Below are positions 2,492 through 62,045 of a stretch of 64,000 nt of DNA, piece by piece. The stretch is from positions 62,001 through 126,000 of IMG/VR virus record IMGVR_UViG_3300042897_000994; one strand, written 5' to 3'. This DNA is from a virus. A model generated the notes under the pieces. It ran no database searches. It was not told where the DNA came from and saw only the letters and a list, made by a program, of their open reading frames with translations. Position 1 is the stretch's first letter; each line of letters begins with the position of its first letter. The position numbers were made by a program, and so were the translations under genes.

Positions 2492-4264
2492 ATGAGTAAT
2501 CTCAATGAAAATTATCTCGTTTACTTAAACGGCGCTTTTCCCAGTACTGCTGATTTGAATAAACAGAGTGATACATTAGCAATACTGGTAGAACAGTTTA
2601 GAAAGAGCGGAAAAAGCGACGCCCAAATCTACTCAATCTTGAGTGGTATGGGAATTGAAAATTTAAAAATTTCTGCGTATTTTGAAGCAGAAAAGATGGG
2701 AAAGTCTCTTCCACCTACACAACCACAAAACGCAACGCCTGCCACTGAATTTATTCAGGTAATCAGCGTAGAAGAAAAAAATACAAACAAAATGAACATA
2801 ACAGAAACTTTAAAGAAGGCTGTATTAGAATCGGTTGAAGCTTTGAAGCCTTTTCAATCTGGAAAGTTTTCATATACTGCCAGCAAAGCCTCTCTTGTTT
2901 TAACCGAATCTCTAACTACAATTAACAGAATCGAAAAGATGATGGCAAATGAAGTAGTTGAAAGAATTAAATCACGAGTTGAGAAAATTGCTGCTGAAAC
3001 TAATGAAAATTTAGAAACTGCAGTAGAAAATATTACAGCTAAAGTTAAAAGTGAAGTTCTAGCTGAAGCAGAATCTCTAAATTCTGAAGTAGGATCTAGA
3101 ATTAGAAATGAAGAATTAAATCTTGTACATTATTTGAGCAATTCTCTTCAGCAAATTAAAGATTTTTCACCAGTCGCAAATCTTTTTAGTCAGGTAAAAG
3201 AAAGTATTGAAAGAAATATGTTTAGCCTAAAGCTTAACTATTACTTGAATTCTGTACCACCTGCTGGTATGTATACCAAAGGGGTGGCTGAAATGAAAAG
3301 CGAATTTAATAAAGGTGAAACTTATCTAAGAGAAAACTTTTCAGATTTTGAAAAGTGGAATTGGGTTCCAGGAATTTCTCAAATGATTAAAGAATTCTCA
3401 GAATATACCAAGTCACTTAGAAGTAATGGGAGTGGAAAGCTGGTTAAAGTATATTCTCCAATCCAGGAAAATGAAGATAAGAGTATTACTTTCTTCTTAG
3501 GGGGTAAATTCTATGCAATTCACGAAGGAAGAGTTGAAGTTGCAAATGAAAATCAACAACCAAATTCAAGAACTTTAGCCGTTCTTGAAGGTCTTTCTTT
3601 GATGAAAGATATGGGAAGCACTTTTTCTTACTTCAAGGGAGATAAAAGTTTCGATATTAACAAAGAAACCGGAGCATTCTCTATCAACGGTAAAGCAGTA
3701 TCAGAATCTGAAGCTCCAAAACTTATCAACTTATTAAGAGAAAATGCAGTAATTGCTCTTCATGAATCTGCAGTAGTTGATAAATTAGCAGTTCTTATTG
3801 AATCAGTAGATTTAGTAAAAGAACTTGATTTTGTAAATTCAATTAACTCAATTATTCACAGAGATGTTGCAGTTAATATGATCAGAATTAACGAAAATGT
3901 TTACATCAACAGAGTAAACAAAGCGATGAATGTAAACGAAATGGTAGAAGTATCAAATCCAAAATTAGCTCAAGAATTAGTAAATGAGTTTGTAAACTTC
4001 GATATTTCTAATCTTGTATACGATCTTTTAGAAAAGAATGAAAAGGATATTCTAAATCTAAATGAAAAGATCGAAGTAGTAAGTAATAACTTAAAATTCC
4101 TACAAGAGAAAAAATCAGATATTGAAAGAGTTTTATCTTTGAAGCCAGATTCAAACGAATTGAAAGAGGCTGTTGAATTTGTTTCTTCAGAAATAACTTC
4201 ACAAGAAAAAAATCTTTCAGATCTGTATGTTCAACTTTCTTCTTTAACAGAAAAAAAAAGTTGA
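2492..4264 (+). CDS. large coiled-coil late protein, function unknown
   Basis: 590-aa, mostly helical and rich in Glu, Lys, Asn and Ser, with long heptad-like stretches around residues 95-210 and 500-590. No enzyme motif or membrane segment was recognised. It lies between the gp15-like gene and the late sigma factor behind its own late promoter, so a virion or assembly role such as core or internal scaffold is plausible but unproven. It starts MSNLNEN, which contains an L-x-E site that the prohead protease might cut. The coding end is unusual: GAA AAA AAA AGT TGA, with an A AAA AAA heptamer in frame and an open -1 frame (4261-4440) beyond the stop, so a frameshifted longer product is possible. 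Confidence 0.55.
   Translation: MSNLNENYLVYLNGAFPSTADLNKQSDTLAILVEQFRKSGKSDAQIYSILSGMGIENLKISAYFEAEKMGKSLPPTQPQNATPATEFIQVISVEEKNTNKMNITETLKKAVLESVEALKPFQSGKFSYTASKASLVLTESLTTINRIEKMMANEVVERIKSRVEKIAAETNENLETAVENITAKVKSEVLAEAESLNSEVGSRIRNEELNLVHYLSNSLQQIKDFSPVANLFSQVKESIERNMFSLKLNYYLNSVPPAGMYTKGVAEMKSEFNKGETYLRENFSDFEKWNWVPGISQMIKEFSEYTKSLRSNGSGKLVKVYSPIQENEDKSITFFLGGKFYAIHEGRVEVANENQQPNSRTLAVLEGLSLMKDMGSTFSYFKGDKSFDINKETGAFSINGKAVSESEAPKLINLLRENAVIALHESAVVDKLAVLIESVDLVKELDFVNSINSIIHRDVAVNMIRINENVYINRVNKAMNVNEMVEVSNPKLAQELVNEFVNFDISNLVYDLLEKNEKDILNLNEKIEVVSNNLKFLQEKKSDIERVLSLKPDSNELKEAVEFVSSEITSQEKNLSDLYVQLSSLTEKKS
4250..4264 (+). other. A-run at gene junction: candidate -1 frameshift or TTG restart site
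   Basis: GAAAAAAAAAGTTGA. The upstream gene reads GAA AAA AAA AGT TGA. A slip of one base back on A AAA AAA would read AAG TTG AGC and enter the next ORF. Alternatively TTG at 4261-4263, overlapping the stop, restarts translation. The identical 15-mer occurs at 55502-55516. Confidence 0.45.
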
Positions 4265-5957: not shown

Positions 5958-7619
5958 ATGGCTGGCTTTCAGGACAGAAAAGGACCTCTTACTAGAGGAA
6001 ATCCTATAAGTGATACTCTCAAATCTTTGAGTAAGCTTGGGATGAAGTATGACGACATGGTCATTAGAAACTCTCGAGCTGTCGGTTTTACCGAGAGCAA
6101 GTTAGGTTATACGATGAATCCATCTGGATCTGATGCAGATGATATTTATTATGCATTTGCCGCTCTTTCAATGACGGATACTTCTAGTAAGAAGAATATC
6201 TCATTTTTTGATAAAAGTTATCCAAAGAAAAGAGATGAATTACGTCAGTTTGCAATTCAAGATGAAATTGAAGAGATTCTAGATACTGTTGCTGATGAAG
6301 CAATTGTATATGATGAGTCTAATTATTTTTGTTATCCTACCCTAAGAGGTCCTGTTAGTAAATCTCTAAGAGAAGATCTACAAGATAATTTTAACAAAAT
6401 TTACGAGTATTTTGGCTTTCAAGACGGACTTTCTGCATGGAACTATTTTAGAAAATGGTTAGTAGACGGTTATCTTTGTTTTGAAATTGTCTATAATGAC
6501 GAACAAGATCAGGTAATTGGATTTAAAGAGCTTGATCCAGTTTCTCTTTTTCCCGCAGTTGACAAAGATAGCGGTAAGAAGATTTGGATACAGTATAAAG
6601 GTGGCGGTCCTAAAGAAAGAATATTATGGGATGCTCAAGTAATTTATGTTTCATATTCTTCAGCTAACTCTCCTTCTAGAGTCTCTTACGTTGAAAGATT
6701 AGTTAGATCTTTCAACTTATTGCGAATTATGGAGCACTCCAGAATCATCTGGTCTGTTACCAATGCAAGTTACAAAATGAAATTTGTAATCCCAGTTGGT
6801 GGTAAATCTAAAACAAGAGCAAAACAATCTCTTTCTCAATTGATGCACAATTATCGAGAATTAGTAGATTTTGATTATGAATCAGGAGAATTATCTACTA
6901 ACGGTAAACCGATGATGCAGTTTCACAAAGAATATTGGTTGCCTTCAAAGGATGGAGAATCTCCGGAAATTGACACCCTTTCTAACGACGGCCCCGATCT
7001 TTCAGATGTAGAAACTCTTAAATGGTTTGCTGACAAATTAAAAATGGCTTCTAAGATTCCTTTCAGCAGATTTGACAAAGATAGTCCAGCTACATATGAA
7101 ATGGCAGCTGAAGGGATGCAAAGAGATGAAATAAAATTTGCTAAATTTATTAATAGACTTCGCTCTATATTCCAGGAAATTATTACTAAGCCCCTGTATC
7201 TACAGATGGTTTTAGATAATCCTGAGCTACAAGACGATTTTAACTTTAAAGCTAATCTTAGTGTAGAATATAATAAAGATAACGTATTTGAAGAATTAAA
7301 AGAAATGGAACTTGCTTCTAAAAGAATAGACTTTATCTCTACTATGATGAGTTCTCTCGTTGAACAAGATGCTGATATGAATGAAATACCATATTTCAAT
7401 CTAAGTTACCTAATTAAGAGATATGGTGGATTTAATCAAGAAGATCTCAGAGCCAATGAAAGAGAAAAAACGATTGAATCACTAGAGAAAGAGGGATACA
7501 GCAAAGAAGACTCCGAAAAGATAGTGGCAGGTGAGCCTAAAAAGAATTTCAAAAAACAAGAACCTGAAGGCGAAGAAGATTCGGCCGATGTAGGGGGAGA
7601 AATTGATTTAGGTTTGTAA
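5958..7619 (+). CDS. 20: portal vertex protein, gp20-like
   Basis: Dodecameric portal through which DNA is packaged and to which the neck attaches. Recognised by the gp20 pattern: DEIEEILDTVADEAIVYDE near residues 98-116, then a phospho-portal core with LIRVMEHSR-like RIMEHSRIIWSVTNASYK, and WLPSKDGESPEIDTLSN followed by DLSDVETLKWFADKLKMASKIPFSRF, typical of T4 gp20. The length of 553 aa compares with 524 in T4. The acidic C-terminal tail is probably disordered. It is preceded by an A-rich tract without a Shine-Dalgarno and followed by the protease gene behind its own late promoter. Confidence 0.92.
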   Translation: MAGFQDRKGPLTRGNPISDTLKSLSKLGMKYDDMVIRNSRAVGFTESKLGYTMNPSGSDADDIYYAFAALSMTDTSSKKNISFFDKSYPKKRDELRQFAIQDEIEEILDTVADEAIVYDESNYFCYPTLRGPVSKSLREDLQDNFNKIYEYFGFQDGLSAWNYFRKWLVDGYLCFEIVYNDEQDQVIGFKELDPVSLFPAVDKDSGKKIWIQYKGGGPKERILWDAQVIYVSYSSANSPSRVSYVERLVRSFNLLRIMEHSRIIWSVTNASYKMKFVIPVGGKSKTRAKQSLSQLMHNYRELVDFDYESGELSTNGKPMMQFHKEYWLPSKDGESPEIDTLSNDGPDLSDVETLKWFADKLKMASKIPFSRFDKDSPATYEMAAEGMQRDEIKFAKFINRLRSIFQEIITKPLYLQMVLDNPELQDDFNFKANLSVEYNKDNVFEELKEMELASKRIDFISTMMSSLVEQDADMNEIPYFNLSYLIKRYGGFNQEDLRANEREKTIESLEKEGYSKEDSEKIVAGEPKKNFKKQEPEGEEDSADVGGEIDLGL

Positions 7620-7637: not shown

Positions 7638-7652
7638 GATATATAAAAAAAA
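7638..7652 (+). promoter_or_regulatory. late promoter
   Basis: gATATATAAAAAAAA; octamer TATAAAAA at 7642-7649. Predicted leader of about 7 nt to the ATG at 7662. Confidence 0.7.
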
Positions 7653-7661
7653 TTATAGAGC

Positions 7662-9482
7662 ATGGCTCATAAAAAACTTCTTATTTTAGAAAGATCCGGA
7701 GAAACCCTTAAAACGACAGCTGATGACGGTTCGGTTGTTCTAGAAGGCGTTTTCACACAAATTGGAGTTCGTAATAAAAATAACAGAATTTACGAAGAGA
7801 AAGAATTTCTTCCTCATGTTAAAGATCTTCAAGAAAAAATCAAGGGCAAAAAACTTTTAGGTGAATTAGATCACCCAAAGTCTTTCGATATTTCACTTGC
7901 CAACGTATCACACGTAATTGAAAAATTAGAGTACGATCCGTCAACCAAGCAAGTAATGGGAAGAATTAGACTTCTTGATACAGATGCAGGAAAACAAGCC
8001 AAAGCTTTAGTAGAGGCCGGTGTTCCTCTTAATATTTCATCTAGAGCCTCTGGGCGAGTTGATGAAAATGGAAAAGTAAAAATTCAGAAACTATTTACTT
8101 ATGATCTAGTAGCCGATCCAGGATTTGAAGCTGCTGAATTACATAGAGTAAATGAATCTCTAGGGTTTGACGACAGTGATGATCTATTGATTTATGAATT
8201 TGAAGATCTCAATTCAGAAGAAACTAAAGTAGAAGTTAAACCTGAAGAAATTGTTCAAGAGTCAAAACCTGAAATCAAAGAACCAATAAAAGAAAATACA
8301 GAAGAAAATACTCAACCTACTATGAATTATGTTAAAGTTGAAGATTTCGATAAGTACTCAGAATATCTGAAAACCGAAATCACGCAAATTAAAGAAGAGG
8401 CTTCAAAAGAGTCTATAGACTTCGAAACCTTCGAAAAGCTGGTTAAATATACTGAGCATATTGCTGAGAAACTTAATCAAGTTCACGATTATTCTAATTA
8501 CTTAGGAGAAAACTTAGATAAGAGTATTTCTCATGGTGATTATATCGTTGAAAGCGTAAATAAATTGAAAGACTATGCTAATTACTTAGCAGAAAGTTTA
8601 CAAAACGGGATTGGCTACTCTGAATATGTTGCTAATAAGCTCGAAGAGTCTATCAAATATCAAAACTATTTAGCAGAAAACGTTCAAAAGGGTATTGATT
8701 ATACTGAATATGTTGCCGAAAACCTAGACAATAGTATTCAGTACCAAAACTATTTGGCTGAAAATCTTGAAAGCTCTATTAAATACTCCGATTATCTAAA
8801 GGAGAATATCGAGAAGATCGGTAAATATGCAGACTACATTGCTGAAAGTGTTAATAGAATTCAAGAAAACAAACCAGCAGATGAAGAAACTCCAGCAATT
8901 AAAGTTGAAGAATCTGTAGAAACAACTCCAGAAGTTAAAGTTGAAGAGAATGATACTACTGTATCATATCAAGATCAAATTTCTAAGAAATTGAATGCTC
9001 TATTAGAATCAGCAGTAGTACAAAAAGAAGAAGATCACTTCTTTAGATTTTTAGACGCTTCTAAGAGAAATGAATTTTCTTCTCTTAACGAAAGTAAGCA
9101 AAACGAAATCAAAGGTGCATTTGAAATCAATAAATATTTTTCTGTTGCAGATGCAAATAGAATTTGGGAATCTTGCTTTATTCAAAAGCCAACTTCTCTA
9201 GATGTAGTTGGTAATATGCCAGAAAAATATAAAGCAAAGTGGGAATCTTTAAACGAGTCTCAACGAAGCAGTATTCTTGCCCAGTCTAAGTTTTGGCCTT
9301 TGAATACACAGTATCAGATTGATAACTTCTGGCAAACAAGAGACTTAAGAACTGTTAAAGTTAATTCTCCAGTTAATGAATCTTCTGTAGCTCCTTTAGC
9401 ACCAGAAGATAAGAATGCAGCAGTTAACGAACAGCTTGAAAATATCAAAAATGCAATTAAAGCAAGATTTGATAAGTTCTAA
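7662..9482 (+). CDS. 21: prohead protease gp21 fused to a repetitive scaffold-like region
   Basis: Residues 1 to about 165 are a T4-type prohead serine protease: GELDHP carries the catalytic His71, and NISSRASG (residues 124-131) carries the nucleophile Ser. T4 gp21 is only 212 aa; here 606 aa. After an acidic linker (about 175-230) comes a run of ten exact 14-residue repeats (residues 262-401, consensus Y-x-x-YLAENL-x-x-SI), two heptads per unit and so probably coiled coil, then a second acidic linker and a helical domain to the end. Nine of the ten repeats contain (I/L/V)-x-E, the T4 gp21 cleavage motif. No separate gp22 scaffold gene was found, so this protein may supply both protease and core. 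Confidence 0.85.
   Translation: MAHKKLLILERSGETLKTTADDGSVVLEGVFTQIGVRNKNNRIYEEKEFLPHVKDLQEKIKGKKLLGELDHPKSFDISLANVSHVIEKLEYDPSTKQVMGRIRLLDTDAGKQAKALVEAGVPLNISSRASGRVDENGKVKIQKLFTYDLVADPGFEAAELHRVNESLGFDDSDDLLIYEFEDLNSEETKVEVKPEEIVQESKPEIKEPIKENTEENTQPTMNYVKVEDFDKYSEYLKTEITQIKEEASKESIDFETFEKLVKYTEHIAEKLNQVHDYSNYLGENLDKSISHGDYIVESVNKLKDYANYLAESLQNGIGYSEYVANKLEESIKYQNYLAENVQKGIDYTEYVAENLDNSIQYQNYLAENLESSIKYSDYLKENIEKIGKYADYIAESVNRIQENKPADEETPAIKVEESVETTPEVKVEENDTTVSYQDQISKKLNALLESAVVQKEEDHFFRFLDASKRNEFSSLNESKQNEIKGAFEINKYFSVADANRIWESCFIQKPTSLDVVGNMPEKYKAKWESLNESQRSSILAQSKFWPLNTQYQIDNFWQTRDLRTVKVNSPVNESSVAPLAPEDKNAAVNEQLENIKNAIKARFDKF
8445..8864 (+). repeat. ten tandem 14-codon repeats in the protease-scaffold gene
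   Basis: Ten in-phase 42-nt units starting at KYTEHIAEKLNQVH and ending KYADYIAESVNRIQ. Units diverge at the DNA level but keep the pattern aromatic-x-x-Y-(L/I/V)-x-E-(N/S). Only the fifth unit (YVANK) lacks the Glu. Confidence 0.9.
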
Positions 9483-9585: not shown

Positions 9586-11271
9586 ATGAATCATTTAATT
9601 AATGAAGCCGAAGTTGTAAGAACTTGGGCGCCCGTGATTGAGGAAGCTACTGGTATTTCAGACAAAGGTAAATTAAACTGGATGTCTAAATACTGCCACT
9701 TCCATCAGTTGAATGAGAATGTGTACAACCAAGTACACTTGAATCCTAACGCCAACGTTTATGGTATGGGTGCAGTTACCTTCCCAGGTGACCCAACCAC
9801 TACTACTGGATTCAATGCTCAAGCAACCGGATCTGGTGACAGACCTTTCAGTCTGCTTCCTCTAGCTATGCAAGTAGCTGCTCAAACAGTAGGTCTTGAC
9901 CTTGTTCCTGTAGTACCAATGTCTGGTCCTCTTGGAATCTTGACTTACTTAGACTTTATCTATGCTGGTGGTAGACTAGATTCTACTGAACCGCCATTGA
10001 TGGTTAAAGTTAACACTACTACCGCTACTTTTGGTAGTTCTTTAACGAATGCTACTGCATGGACTGCTAACACTACATATTATCTATGTTCTGCTGCTGG
10101 TGCTGCTACTTATGCTCTTACTTTTGTAGGTCTATCTCGTATCGACGGATTACCTATCTTTAAAGTAAATGCTTACAATAGTGGTGCAGCTCAGCCTAAC
10201 GGTACTGCAGGTACTGTAACTTTAGCAGCTGCAGCTATTGCTACTGCAACAATTTCAACCAATGCTAATGGTACAGGTGACATCGTTACATTTACCGCAA
10301 GCGGAACTCTTGAACTTGTAAAAGCTCTTGAAGATCATATCCCAGGTTTCTCTGGTGCTGGTTTTGCTCCTGCTGCAGTAACAGGTGGTAACAGTGTTGC
10401 TAACGTTGAACCTTTCTTGAGAGCTGATGGTGAATTAACATCAGATAACCTAATGGGTCTTTCATTGTTCAATAAATCAGTTGCTGCTGAAACTTACCAA
10501 GTTGCAGCTGCTGTAACTAGAGAGCAAGTACAAGACCTTAAGCAATTCGGTATTGATGCAGTAGCTCAAGTAGAAGCTGTATTGGTTAATGAATTGACTC
10601 AGTCAATCAACAAGTTGATTCTTCAGAGAATCTTCAGACTAGGTGCAAGTAACGCAGAAAACGTATTTAACGTTGATGCTACTAACTTAAACCTTTTTGT
10701 AGCTGCAACGGCTACAACCACTTCTATCGATCTTGGTACTAATGCAAATGGAGTAGCCGTAAGTATTCTTACTTCTTCTACTATCCCTACATCAGGTGAC
10801 AACGGTGGTACATTGCAAAGAAAGATTTTATCTAGAATCCTAGCTGCTTCAAACTTGATCGCTATCCGTGGTCGTAGAGGAGCTGCTAACTTTGCAGTAA
10901 CTAACGGTCAACTTGCTACTGCAATCCAAGATATCGCTGGATTTACTCCATACCCAATGGCTAACACCGTTAACCAAAACGGTGGATCTCTATATCCAGT
11001 TGGTTCTGTTGCAGGTGTAACTATCTACGTAGATCCTAACATGTCATGGACTGACACTAGAATCGTAGTAGGTAGAAAAGGTGACGGTAACTCTCCAGGT
11101 CTAGTATTCATGCCTTACTTAATGGCTGAATCTGCCCAGACTATTGCTGAAATGACTATGGCACCTAAAATTGCTGTTAAGTCAAGATTCACTCTAGTTG
11201 ATGCTGGTTTCCACCCAGAAACTATGTACTTCACTCTAGGAGTTAAGTTTACTAGTTACTCAATCGTTTAA
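9586..11271 (+). CDS. 23: major capsid protein, gp23-like
   Basis: HK97-fold capsid subunit of T4 type. Recognisable features are the N-terminal VVRTWAPVIEEA (T4: LLNKWKPLLE), the block LLPLAMQVAAQTVGLDLVPVVPMSGPLG (quoted here as LDLVPVVPMSGPLG), and the C-terminal stretch with DPNMSWTD, VVGRKGD and KSRFTLVDAGF. The length of 561 aa compares with 521 in T4; residues about 130-260, Thr/Ala rich, look like an inserted domain. A propeptide cut by gp21 is expected; INE followed by A at residues 5-8 and LNE at about 42-44 are candidate sites. Codon use is the most regular in the window, consistent with high expression. A strong terminator follows. Confidence 0.93.
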   Translation: MNHLINEAEVVRTWAPVIEEATGISDKGKLNWMSKYCHFHQLNENVYNQVHLNPNANVYGMGAVTFPGDPTTTTGFNAQATGSGDRPFSLLPLAMQVAAQTVGLDLVPVVPMSGPLGILTYLDFIYAGGRLDSTEPPLMVKVNTTTATFGSSLTNATAWTANTTYYLCSAAGAATYALTFVGLSRIDGLPIFKVNAYNSGAAQPNGTAGTVTLAAAAIATATISTNANGTGDIVTFTASGTLELVKALEDHIPGFSGAGFAPAAVTGGNSVANVEPFLRADGELTSDNLMGLSLFNKSVAAETYQVAAAVTREQVQDLKQFGIDAVAQVEAVLVNELTQSINKLILQRIFRLGASNAENVFNVDATNLNLFVAATATTTSIDLGTNANGVAVSILTSSTIPTSGDNGGTLQRKILSRILAASNLIAIRGRRGAANFAVTNGQLATAIQDIAGFTPYPMANTVNQNGGSLYPVGSVAGVTIYVDPNMSWTDTRIVVGRKGDGNSPGLVFMPYLMAESAQTIAEMTMAPKIAVKSRFTLVDAGFHPETMYFTLGVKFTSYSIV

Positions 11272-11359: not shown

Positions 11360-12697
11360 ATGATGAAAAAAGTTTTAACTCTTGAAGAATATGATCAAAT
11401 AATAGAAGGCTTAAAGCCTATCAACACGGAAGAATATGATCATGATTTTATCACTTCAGTCATGTACGAAAAATTTGAAGTAGTTGATAAAACGGATAGA
11501 GAAATTAATGAAACCTTTAATCTATATTTAGCAGAAGGGGCTATATCGAATTTTATCGCTCTTTCAACAAATCCTATAACAGGAATCAAACTTGCAAATA
11601 ATGCAAAAAAATTAGCTAAAGCTCACATTCAAAACGCAACAGCTAAAATAGACTTTGAGAAGAAAATACAAGCAGCTGAAAGGGCAAAAGATAAAAATCC
11701 AGAAAAAGCTGATCAAGCTAAAAAGGCTATGGAAATTGCTAAATCGGCTTATGCTACCAAGAAAGAAGTTGCAGCTGATCAAATAGAAGCAATCCAAGAC
11801 AGGATGGGCGAATTGTCTAAAGACGATCCAAAGTTATCTAAAGTTTCCGCTCTTTTGAAAACCAAAGCTAGAGTCGAAGCAAATAAAAAGCTTCTAAGGA
11901 TATTAGATACAGAAGAAAGAAAGCAATTACAACTAACTATTAAAGATCAGGAAGAAAAAGCCAAGAATGCTGAAGCGCAAATGGCTGATTATGTTAGTTC
12001 TGAAAAAGAAAAAGATAATGCAGATAAAGGTGGAGAATCTACAGATCAGAAAGTCAAAGATTTACAAGATAAAATAGACTCAGTTCAGGATAAAATAGGT
12101 AAAACTGAAGATCCTGAAGATAAAGCTAAATTGAGCGTAGATAAAGCTAAATTGAATCAAGAGAAAGCAAAAGAAAAAGGAGAAGATTTAGATAAAGCAA
12201 ATTTTAAAGTAGCAGCTGAAACTGCAAGATTAAAATATGTACAAGATAAAACTCCTCAAAACTACTTAGAATATCTAAAGACAAGTCTTAAATACGACGA
12301 ATCTGCAGAAAATCCTAATAAAGAAGCTATCGATAAAAAGAAAGAAGCGATTAAAGACTGGGAAGAGAAAGTTAAAGCAAAACCTACTGAAAAACCAAAG
12401 GGTGACAAAACTGAACAGGAAATCGCAGATCTTAATAAAAAGAAAGAAGACTTAGCAGCTAAAATCGCAGATCAAAGAGAAGGTGTTGATACTTCTAATA
12501 AGCTTTACACCGATGCTTTGAATAAAAGAGATTCTATTAAAGATACAGAAAGCCCAGAATGGGCCAAAGCTGCTGAAGAATACAGTGCAATCTCCTCAGA
12601 AAGACAAGCAGATCTAGCTAGACTAAGCGGTCTAGAAGCTCAGTTGAAAACTATTTCGCAGAAAATTTCAGATCTCCAGGCTAAGAAGAAAAAATAA
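11360..12697 (+). CDS. coiled-coil late protein with capsid-targeting-like N-terminus
   Basis: 445 aa, highly charged (Lys, Glu, Asp, Ala), predicted as long coiled coil from about residue 75 to the end with no enzyme motif. The N-terminus MMKKVLTLEEYDQIIEG fits the T4 capsid-targeting type: a short amphipathic peptide ending in I-I-E before Gly, a site the prohead protease could cut. It lies directly after the capsid terminator with its own late promoter, so I infer an abundant internal head protein. ATG at 11360 or 11363 are both possible. Alternative: a scaffold component. Confidence 0.55.
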   Translation: MMKKVLTLEEYDQIIEGLKPINTEEYDHDFITSVMYEKFEVVDKTDREINETFNLYLAEGAISNFIALSTNPITGIKLANNAKKLAKAHIQNATAKIDFEKKIQAAERAKDKNPEKADQAKKAMEIAKSAYATKKEVAADQIEAIQDRMGELSKDDPKLSKVSALLKTKARVEANKKLLRILDTEERKQLQLTIKDQEEKAKNAEAQMADYVSSEKEKDNADKGGESTDQKVKDLQDKIDSVQDKIGKTEDPEDKAKLSVDKAKLNQEKAKEKGEDLDKANFKVAAETARLKYVQDKTPQNYLEYLKTSLKYDESAENPNKEAIDKKKEAIKDWEEKVKAKPTEKPKGDKTEQEIADLNKKKEDLAAKIADQREGVDTSNKLYTDALNKRDSIKDTESPEWAKAAEEYSAISSERQADLARLSGLEAQLKTISQKISDLQAKKKK

Positions 12698-61148: not shown

Positions 61149-62045
61149 ATGAAAATAATTACAGGAGGAAGCGGACTGATAGGATCTGAATTTTCAGAGG
61201 GAATGAAATTAAAAAGTTCTGACTACGATCTAAGAAACAGATCAGAAGTAATTAGAATGATAGGAGACTTTGCTCCTACTACTATTATACACACTGCTGC
61301 AAAGGTAGGTGGTGTCTGGGCTAATATGAATTATAAAGCCAATTTTTTCTATGATAATATTACGATGAACTCGAATATTATTCATGAAGCAGCAATGAGA
61401 AAGGTTGAAAAACTGATAGTGTTTCTTTCGACTTGTGTTTTCCCAGATTCTGTAGAATATCCTCTAGATGAAACCAAGATTCATTTAGGTCCTCCGCACT
61501 CATCGAATGATGCTTATGCTTATGCCAAAAGAATGGCAGATGTTCAAGTGAGAGCGTACAATCAACAATATGGAACCAAATATTTTTGTGTAATTCCTAC
61601 TAATGTATATGGTCCACAAGATAATTACAATCTCGAAAACAGTCATGTATTGCCAGCTCTTATTCATAAATGTTATTTAGCAAAAAAGAATAATACTGAC
61701 TGGGAAATTTGGGGAGACGGTACACCCTTACGAGAATTTATTTTTTCTAGAGATGTAGCTGAAATTTGTGATCTTTTATTAGAAAAATATGAAGATGATT
61801 CTCCCGTAATTCTTTCTACTTCTTCTGAAATTTCAATCAGAGAAGTCGCAGAGATGATTGGAAAAATTATGAACTTTAAGGGAAAAATAAAGTGGCTTTC
61901 TGATAAACCTAATGGGCAATTTAGAAAACCTTCCGATAATTCCAAGCTATTATCGATCATAAATTATAAGTTTACTCCGCTTGATGAAGGCTTGTCAGAA
62001 ACAATAGAATATTTCATACAAAATTATGAGAAGGTGAGGAAATAA
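61149..62045 (+). CDS. fcl: GDP-L-fucose synthase
   Basis: Epimerase-reductase completing GDP-L-fucose synthesis. N-terminal ITGGSGLIGSEF, HTAAKVGGVWANM, FLSTCVFPD, the catalytic NDAYAYAKRMADVQ (Tyr-x-x-x-Lys), TNVYGPQDNY and SHVLPALIHKCYLAK are family-specific. 298 aa. It pairs with Gmd 3 nt upstream; the fucose is presumably used by the neighbouring glycosyltransferases. Confidence 0.94.
   Translation: MKIITGGSGLIGSEFSEGMKLKSSDYDLRNRSEVIRMIGDFAPTTIIHTAAKVGGVWANMNYKANFFYDNITMNSNIIHEAAMRKVEKLIVFLSTCVFPDSVEYPLDETKIHLGPPHSSNDAYAYAKRMADVQVRAYNQQYGTKYFCVIPTNVYGPQDNYNLENSHVLPALIHKCYLAKKNNTDWEIWGDGTPLREFIFSRDVAEICDLLLEKYEDDSPVILSTSSEISIREVAEMIGKIMNFKGKIKWLSDKPNGQFRKPSDNSKLLSIINYKFTPLDEGLSETIEYFIQNYEKVRK

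Follow-up and report, generated by a model that had tools for sequence, protein, structure and literature searches.

A long prohead protease in a T4-type head module

A 64,000-nucleotide stretch of viral DNA, positions 62,001 to 126,000 of IMG/VR record IMGVR_UViG_3300042897_000994 and hereafter the window, carries at 7662-9482 on the plus strand an open reading frame (ORF) of 606 amino acids (aa) in which a prohead protease of about 160 residues is followed by an extension of about 440 residues. The setting of this fusion gene is a head module of the bacteriophage T4 type: a gp20-family portal gene, identified by its Pfam match, lies upstream (5958-7619, plus strand), a gp23-family major capsid gene lies downstream (9586-11271, plus strand; PF07068, 112 bits), and genes for a tail sheath stabiliser, a late sigma factor, head closure and a DNA end protector come before these three. 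The record as a whole measures 160.9 kb, with 158 ORFs of at least 80 aa used for motif counts, and is probably a fragment because complete relatives measure 462-735 kb.

The prohead protease that an initial sequence-only reading had recognised in this ORF was confirmed by Pfam, PHROG, BLASTP and fold comparison. The domain (residues 1-160; 7662-8141, plus strand) has the S77, or T4 gp21, fold: Pfam PF03420 (Peptidase_S77) matches residues 23-136 with 54.7 bits against a cut-off of 27, phrog_207 matches residues 17-231 (E 1.4e-43), BLASTP aligns 118 aa with T4 gp21 at 31% identity (E 5e-14), and comparison of the AlphaFold model with the crystal structure of gp21, 5jbl, gives a probability of 1.00 and a template modelling (TM) score of 0.77-0.79 over the target. 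H71, S126, S127 and D148 are unchanged across 26 homologues, and the putative catalytic residues H71, S126 and D148 were equated, through the alignment for His and Ser and via a motif for Asp, with H85, S140 and D168 of T4 gp21, which we take to be its catalytic triad. The herpesvirus protease fold (S21) gave no significant match, the varicella-zoster virus enzyme reaching E 0.11 and a probability of 0.57, and no credible Pfam or NCBIfam family was found for the extension beyond the protease domain.

The fused architecture is present in more than 80 non-redundant relatives, including the complete phages of the size range given above. A first scan of a viral contig collection yielded 39 loci, and the same long protein is encoded by the huge phages LR756500, LR756501, LR756502, LR745206 and LR756504. 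Conservation was assessed on an alignment of 29 distinct full-length fused proteins (588-815 aa) and on a held-out set of 54 representatives from two further scans, clustered at 85% identity and mostly new, some of whose contigs (for example L173, L174, L200, L239, L240 and L246) overlap the first set. A capsid gene lies downstream of the fused protease in 45 of 45 held-out loci, mostly 35-190 bp away; in loci L006, L009, L010, L013, L018 and L038, 0.7-2.8 kb of extra DNA, perhaps a mobile gene, separates the two. The architecture is not wholly new to databases, since phrog_207 (519 positions) matches the fused protein of Tenacibaculum phage pT24 end to end and the pT24 and PTm1 proteins are annotated as prohead core scaffold, a label given by name, with no experiment found behind it, that apparently follows the usual name of gp21. 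In the open-access literature we found no paper on the fusion, on enrichment of the protease's own sites or on an internal start in this family.

Several single loci deserve mention. Flavobacterium phage MaF61 (L049, 7902-12116) encodes a protein of 1404 aa with the same protease at its N-terminus and 28 cleavage-type motifs but without the conserved C-terminal domain described below, perhaps an independent and larger fusion. In Prevotella phage Lak-B2 (L043, 11986-13731) the protease is 581 aa long under genetic code 15, where TAG encodes Gln, and its gene looks broken under the standard code. The capsid protein of the window matches phrog_28442, a family whose function is listed as unknown, at E 1e-95 and far better than it matches the named capsid family; phrog_28442 is evidently a family of gp23-type capsid proteins.

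Cleavage-type motifs and an internal methionine

T4 gp21 cleaves after L/I-X-E (PMC9026906). As judged from the alignment, the most conserved motifs of this type in the fusion protein are two that lie outside its repeats. The first, a putative site of release by autocleavage, reads VNE↓S and lies where the protease domain ends (Glu165; 8148-8159, plus strand): Glu165 stands in an LxE context in 28 of 28 homologues, with Ser as the next residue in 24, and an LxE site follows the protease in all 54 held-out homologues. The second, a putative maturation site that also reads VNE↓S, is placed 33 residues from the C-terminus (Glu573; 9372-9383, plus strand), where LxE is kept in 96% of the 28 homologues and S, N or G comes next in 26.

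Just upstream of the second site lies a conserved helical domain (residues 436-563; 8967-9350, plus strand) marked by a near-invariant QYQIDNFWxT. The fused proteases of PTm1 and the Lak phages have this domain too, as does, weakly, that of pT24; it was not found in MaF61, in T4 gp22 or in any further separate scaffold tested. A fold search of the PDB with its model (mean predicted local distance difference test score, pLDDT, 71; predicted TM score 0.33) returned no match, and the strongest BFVD matches were A0A7S9SUJ9, which has 389 aa and comes from Virus NIOZ-UU157, and a protein of 657 aa annotated as a T4-type protease. A0A7S9SUJ9 is close in length to the 386-aa product predicted below; it may be a gene of its own, a call begun at the internal start or a fragment. 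Beyond the second site AlphaFold predicts a terminal helix (residues 584-605; 9411-9476, plus strand), a candidate capsid- or core-binding tail. By eye this helix resembles the ends of gp21 and gp22 of T4, but the resemblance is too short for a test and was not used.

The extension further contains ten 14-residue helical repeats (residues 262-401; 8445-8864, plus strand) of the approximate form Y-x-x-Y-[LIV]-A-E-N-L-x-x-x-I-x. The sequence-only reading had described these as exact, which is true of the period, as there are no insertions, but not of the sequence, as identity at lag 14 is 35% (the maximum among shuffles being 17%); it was right that (I/L/V)-x-E followed by N, S or K is present in nine of the ten. 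AlphaFold draws long helices at residues 226-402 with pLDDT below 50, and helix is likely there on this low-confidence model.

When [ILV]xE[NSAGT] motifs were counted against residue shuffles, the fusion protein held 23 sites where shuffles gave 4.6 (z 9.1), ranking first among the 158 ORFs of the record, and an excess persisted outside the repeats (13 versus 3.5, p 2e-4). Apart from this protein and the product of the ORF at 2492-4264, no ORF was nearly as site-rich. The same test flagged gp22 in eight of eight T4-like phages (p <=0.0055) and T4 gp68 as well, whereas portals were not enriched, that of the window having 0 sites against 2.4 expected. All 54 held-out homologues were site-enriched, and in all 54 the top period was 14. 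Clades A, B and D keep the repeat Glu in about 90% of copies and clade C in 54%, and it is the least variable polar position of the repeat; the residue after it is mostly N or S in the fusion protein, with K, H, Q and R occurring too. A cut before N or S would fit this lineage, because the capsid protein has the same motif at a putative cleavage site equivalent to the T4 propeptide site (LNE↓N, Glu44; 9709-9720), and in nearly all relatives the capsid protein has [LIM]xE near residue 44, with N, S or A as the next residue. The extension is strongly and conservedly enriched in the lineage's own cleavage motif, but the repeats are not the constant part of the protein, the flanking sites at 165 and 573 being better conserved. 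Across the aligned sequences, putative repeat sites occur in most of the family but not in all of it.

Between the release site and the helical part runs a poorly conserved linker, and in it lies an ATG (Met221; 8322-8324, plus strand) that is the probable start of a scaffold-only product of 386 aa. An equivalent of Met221 is present in 29 of 29 aligned proteins, just before a [VI]-[ST]-x-E-D-F-like motif, and is the sole invariant position among the surrounding 32; the held-out set has Met at this place in 54 of 54, one of them outside the strict pattern and confirmed by eye. The bases upstream resemble those of gene starts. In the first set A makes up 64% of them, while gene starts have 58%, other internal Met codons 35% and the linker 38%; the corresponding values in the second set are 58%, 59%, 40% and 40%. 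AA occupies -15/-14 in 29 of 29 genes of the first set and 47 of 53 of the second; the figure is 79% for the start codons of these genes and 15% for the linker. A stands at -3 in 41 of 53, and internal Met codons as a whole have it there in 39%.

The relatives suggest a Bacteroidota host for this phage; Bacteroidetes do without Shine-Dalgarno signals, and their translation initiation is favoured by A at -3, -6 and roughly -11 to -14 (PMC6847099). Upstream of its own genes the phage has few G residues, and A becomes more frequent around -15 to -11. No Shine-Dalgarno signal precedes Met221, nor are such signals prominent at the phage's gene starts. In the window, Met221 has AA at -15/-14 and weak RNA folding around it (z +1.05). 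Conserved throughout the family and set, as true starts are, in A-rich sequence, Met221 makes a scaffold-only product likely on sequence grounds. T4 gp21 itself has a second internal start, at Met45 (PMC9026906).

The scaffold slot and competing explanations

T4, cyanophages, CBA120 and others have the order portal, protease of about 210-220 aa, gp22, capsid, and the extension of the fusion protein occupies the slot of gp22, directly before the major capsid gene. The sequence-only reading had found no gp22-type gene, and in a hidden Markov model search the gp22 models PF25623 and phrog_237 likewise matched nothing in the 160.9-kb record or in the three complete huge phages LR756500, LR756501 and LR756502. 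These models do detect gp22 of P-TIM40; they miss PAU too, so missing gp22 homology is not a missing scaffold, and divergent scaffolds are often undetectable by homology. Among the phages checked whose capsid gene was in reach, which leaves out XacN1, most of those with a short protease (208-246 aa) have a separate site-rich protein by the capsid gene (gp22 of T4, P-TIM40 and six others; PA5oct gp330; Atu_ph07 gp214; PAU gp155), whereas in the fused phages the site enrichment sits in the protease itself.

Two of these separate proteins bear on annotation. Agrobacterium phage Atu_ph07 gp214 (L048, 14792-16036), annotated as a Rad50 ATPase, adjoins the capsid gene, has 20 cleavage-type motifs against 3.8 expected and looks like an unrecognised scaffold. 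In Sphingomonas phage PAU (L044, 8660-9493 and 10306-11052), gp152, annotated as scaffolding, has 1 motif against 1.0 and gp155, whose gene lies near that of the capsid protein, has 11 where 3.0 are expected, so that the scaffold may be gp155. In the window, a 445-aa ORF at 11360-12697 was considered as a separate scaffold and rejected, having 3 sites against 2.5, with 0-4 in relatives, and not being found in every clade.

We conclude that the gene probably encodes both the prohead protease and the main scaffold of this very large T4-related phage, likely with a nested scaffold-only product and with a full-length protein predicted to cleave itself. Several observations weigh against this reading, beginning at Met221 itself: in the window its context is weak, at the 62nd percentile of internal Met codons and the 4th of gene starts; the A-rich stretch before it encodes a linker rich in Lys, Asn and Glu; and no late-promoter-like motif lies upstream of it. 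A weak context is what would be seen if the fusion were real but had no internal start, Met221 being a relic of an old scaffold start codon or kept for protein reasons. A gene fusion would leave such a Met, and P2 gpO, a fused protease-scaffold, is described as one polypeptide (PMC7552001). Of the alternatives this one survives best, yet it is unlikely, as the Met is kept in 83 of 83 proteins, some of them only about 30% identical, although the linker around it is otherwise unconserved, and the start-like base pattern extends across the family and exceeds what a relic would be expected to show.

The late-promoter-like motif itself, GATATATAAAAA, precedes the fusion gene at 7638-7649 (plus strand). 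Motifs of this type number 10 in the window against 0.5 expected, all on the plus strand (starts at 1498, 2469, 5929, 7638, 9484, 11332, 17435, 21921, 28234 and 48024) and mostly shortly upstream of structural genes; the genes they precede include those for the portal, the protease, the capsid protein and the 590-aa protein discussed below, and the motif is probably the late promoter of the phage.

A further difficulty comes from the most distant clade (L032-L039), which keeps the 14-residue period while its Glu is mostly replaced by Lys. The motifs could then be a by-product of a duplicated helical repeat with set Leu and Glu positions rather than cleavage sites, the more so as duplication inflates motif counts and residues other than N and S also follow the Glu. 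We regard this as slightly less probable again than a fusion lacking an internal start, because an excess of sites remains outside the repeats, the Glu is the most constant of their polar positions, and the next residue in this protein is mostly N or S, as at the capsid site.

Two other observations concern the scaffold role. Comparison by hhalign of four pieces of the extension with 65 gp22 proteins gave probabilities below 2%; since no part of the extension is linked to gp22 by profile, our claim is limited to its probably working like gp22 and is not that it is gp22. The other is the 590-aa protein of unknown function encoded at 2492-4264 (plus strand), the second most site-rich of the 158 ORFs (16 versus 5.4), whose homologues were enriched in eight of eight tested. 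By its motifs it is probably another substrate, and it may also be a core protein, in which case the core would not be one protein. It could even be the real scaffold if the extension were no more than a long C-terminal propeptide for targeting or activation of the protease. This we consider improbable: 438 residues with repeats and a conserved domain far exceed the known propeptide, the extension fills the gp22 slot, a protease-free product from the conserved internal Met would be pointless for targeting alone, and, within the limited span searched, neither the distant clade nor LR756501 and LR756502 showed a 590-type gene near the module. Least probable is that the extension is retained in the mature head, where it would organise the DNA as an internal or inner-body component or leave with it on ejection. 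Huge phages such as phiKZ do retain processed internal head proteins (PMC13282480), but such proteins usually shed a propeptide at one end while the body stays stable (PMC10052503), whereas the sites here are scattered throughout the extension.

The sequence-only reading had proposed a single protein that builds the core. The part of this that stands is the fusion of a protease with a scaffold-like region; the conserved Met221 suggests that there are probably two nested products instead of one, and with a second site-rich protein at hand the core may hold more.

For a gene that encodes protease and scaffold together, we infer the following course, from translation at Met221 and core assembly through every cleavage and their order. 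The helical C-terminal part would carry the full-length protein, and hence the protease, into the assembling core, the bulk of which would be supplied by the shorter, protease-free Met221 product. The capsid shell would assemble around this core, and after shell closure the protease would become active and free itself at VNE↓S165. A cut at VNE↓S573 would remove the C-terminal tail, releasing the scaffold from the shell, the (I/L/V)-x-E sites of the helical repeats would be cleaved, and the N-terminal propeptide of the capsid protein would be removed at LNE↓N44; the fragments would then exit before DNA enters the head. A nested product would uncouple the amounts of scaffold and protease; the T4 head has about 576 gp22 per 100 gp21 (PMC5694885).

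Relation to known protease-scaffold systems

Protease-scaffold fusions have precedents in P2 gpO and herpesvirus UL26, and what is new here is a probable version in the T4 gp21 lineage. With T4 gp21 and gp22 the system shares the protease family and fold, the portal-protease-capsid order, the L/I-x-E cleavage motif and many sites in the core protein, here a putative one; it differs in that gp21 (212 aa) and gp22 (269 aa) are separate genes and in that the extension has no detectable gp22 homology. Closer to it are the fused proteases of pT24 and PTm1 (527 and 564 aa), which lie between portal and capsid genes, have 23 sites each and share part of the C-terminal domain, although no 14-residue repeats were found in pT24, the one of the two examined for them. 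The Prevotella Lak protease (581 aa, code 15) likewise has the protease, a release-type VNES, the C-terminal domain and a terminal VNES, but with an acidic linker in place of the repeats and a different genetic code.

Other lineages combine the two functions differently. In phage lambda the scaffold Nu3 is nested in frame within the gene of protease C, a ClpP-like and unrelated enzyme. P2 gpO resembles the fusion protein in joining an N-terminal protease and a C-terminal scaffold domain in one protein, but is 284 aa long, belongs to a different lineage and presumably lacks site-filled 14-residue repeats. Its protease (residues 1-141) cuts itself and the capsid protein, and its scaffold domain spans residues 195-284 (PMC7552001).

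Together, a start at Met221 and the conserved sites at 165 and 573 would give a layout like that of herpesvirus UL26/UL26.5, where protease, release site, nested start, scaffold, maturation site and short C-terminal tail follow one another (PMC4498786). In pseudorabies virus the start offset is 21 residues and the tail 37 residues (PMC4498786), whereas the offset here would be 55 and the tail 33 residues; the catalytic triad and cleavage motif also differ, the sequences are unrelated, and the nesting in the phage is predicted from conservation.

We see about an even chance that a large clade of huge T4-related phages carries a nested scaffold inside the protease gene, with sites arranged as in UL26/UL26.5, and that this is the missing counterpart of gp22. 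This gives an entire clade, with one of the largest known phage genomes among its members, a scaffold candidate, and the site-enrichment test offers a route to unrecognised scaffolds in other phages. The gp21 protease is reportedly related to the herpesvirus enzyme. If true, the arrangement would be another instance of the UL26/UL26.5 type, on a gp21 protease, and the parallel would bear on the question whether the coupling of protease and scaffold is an ancestral trait of tailed phages and herpesviruses or evolved more than once.
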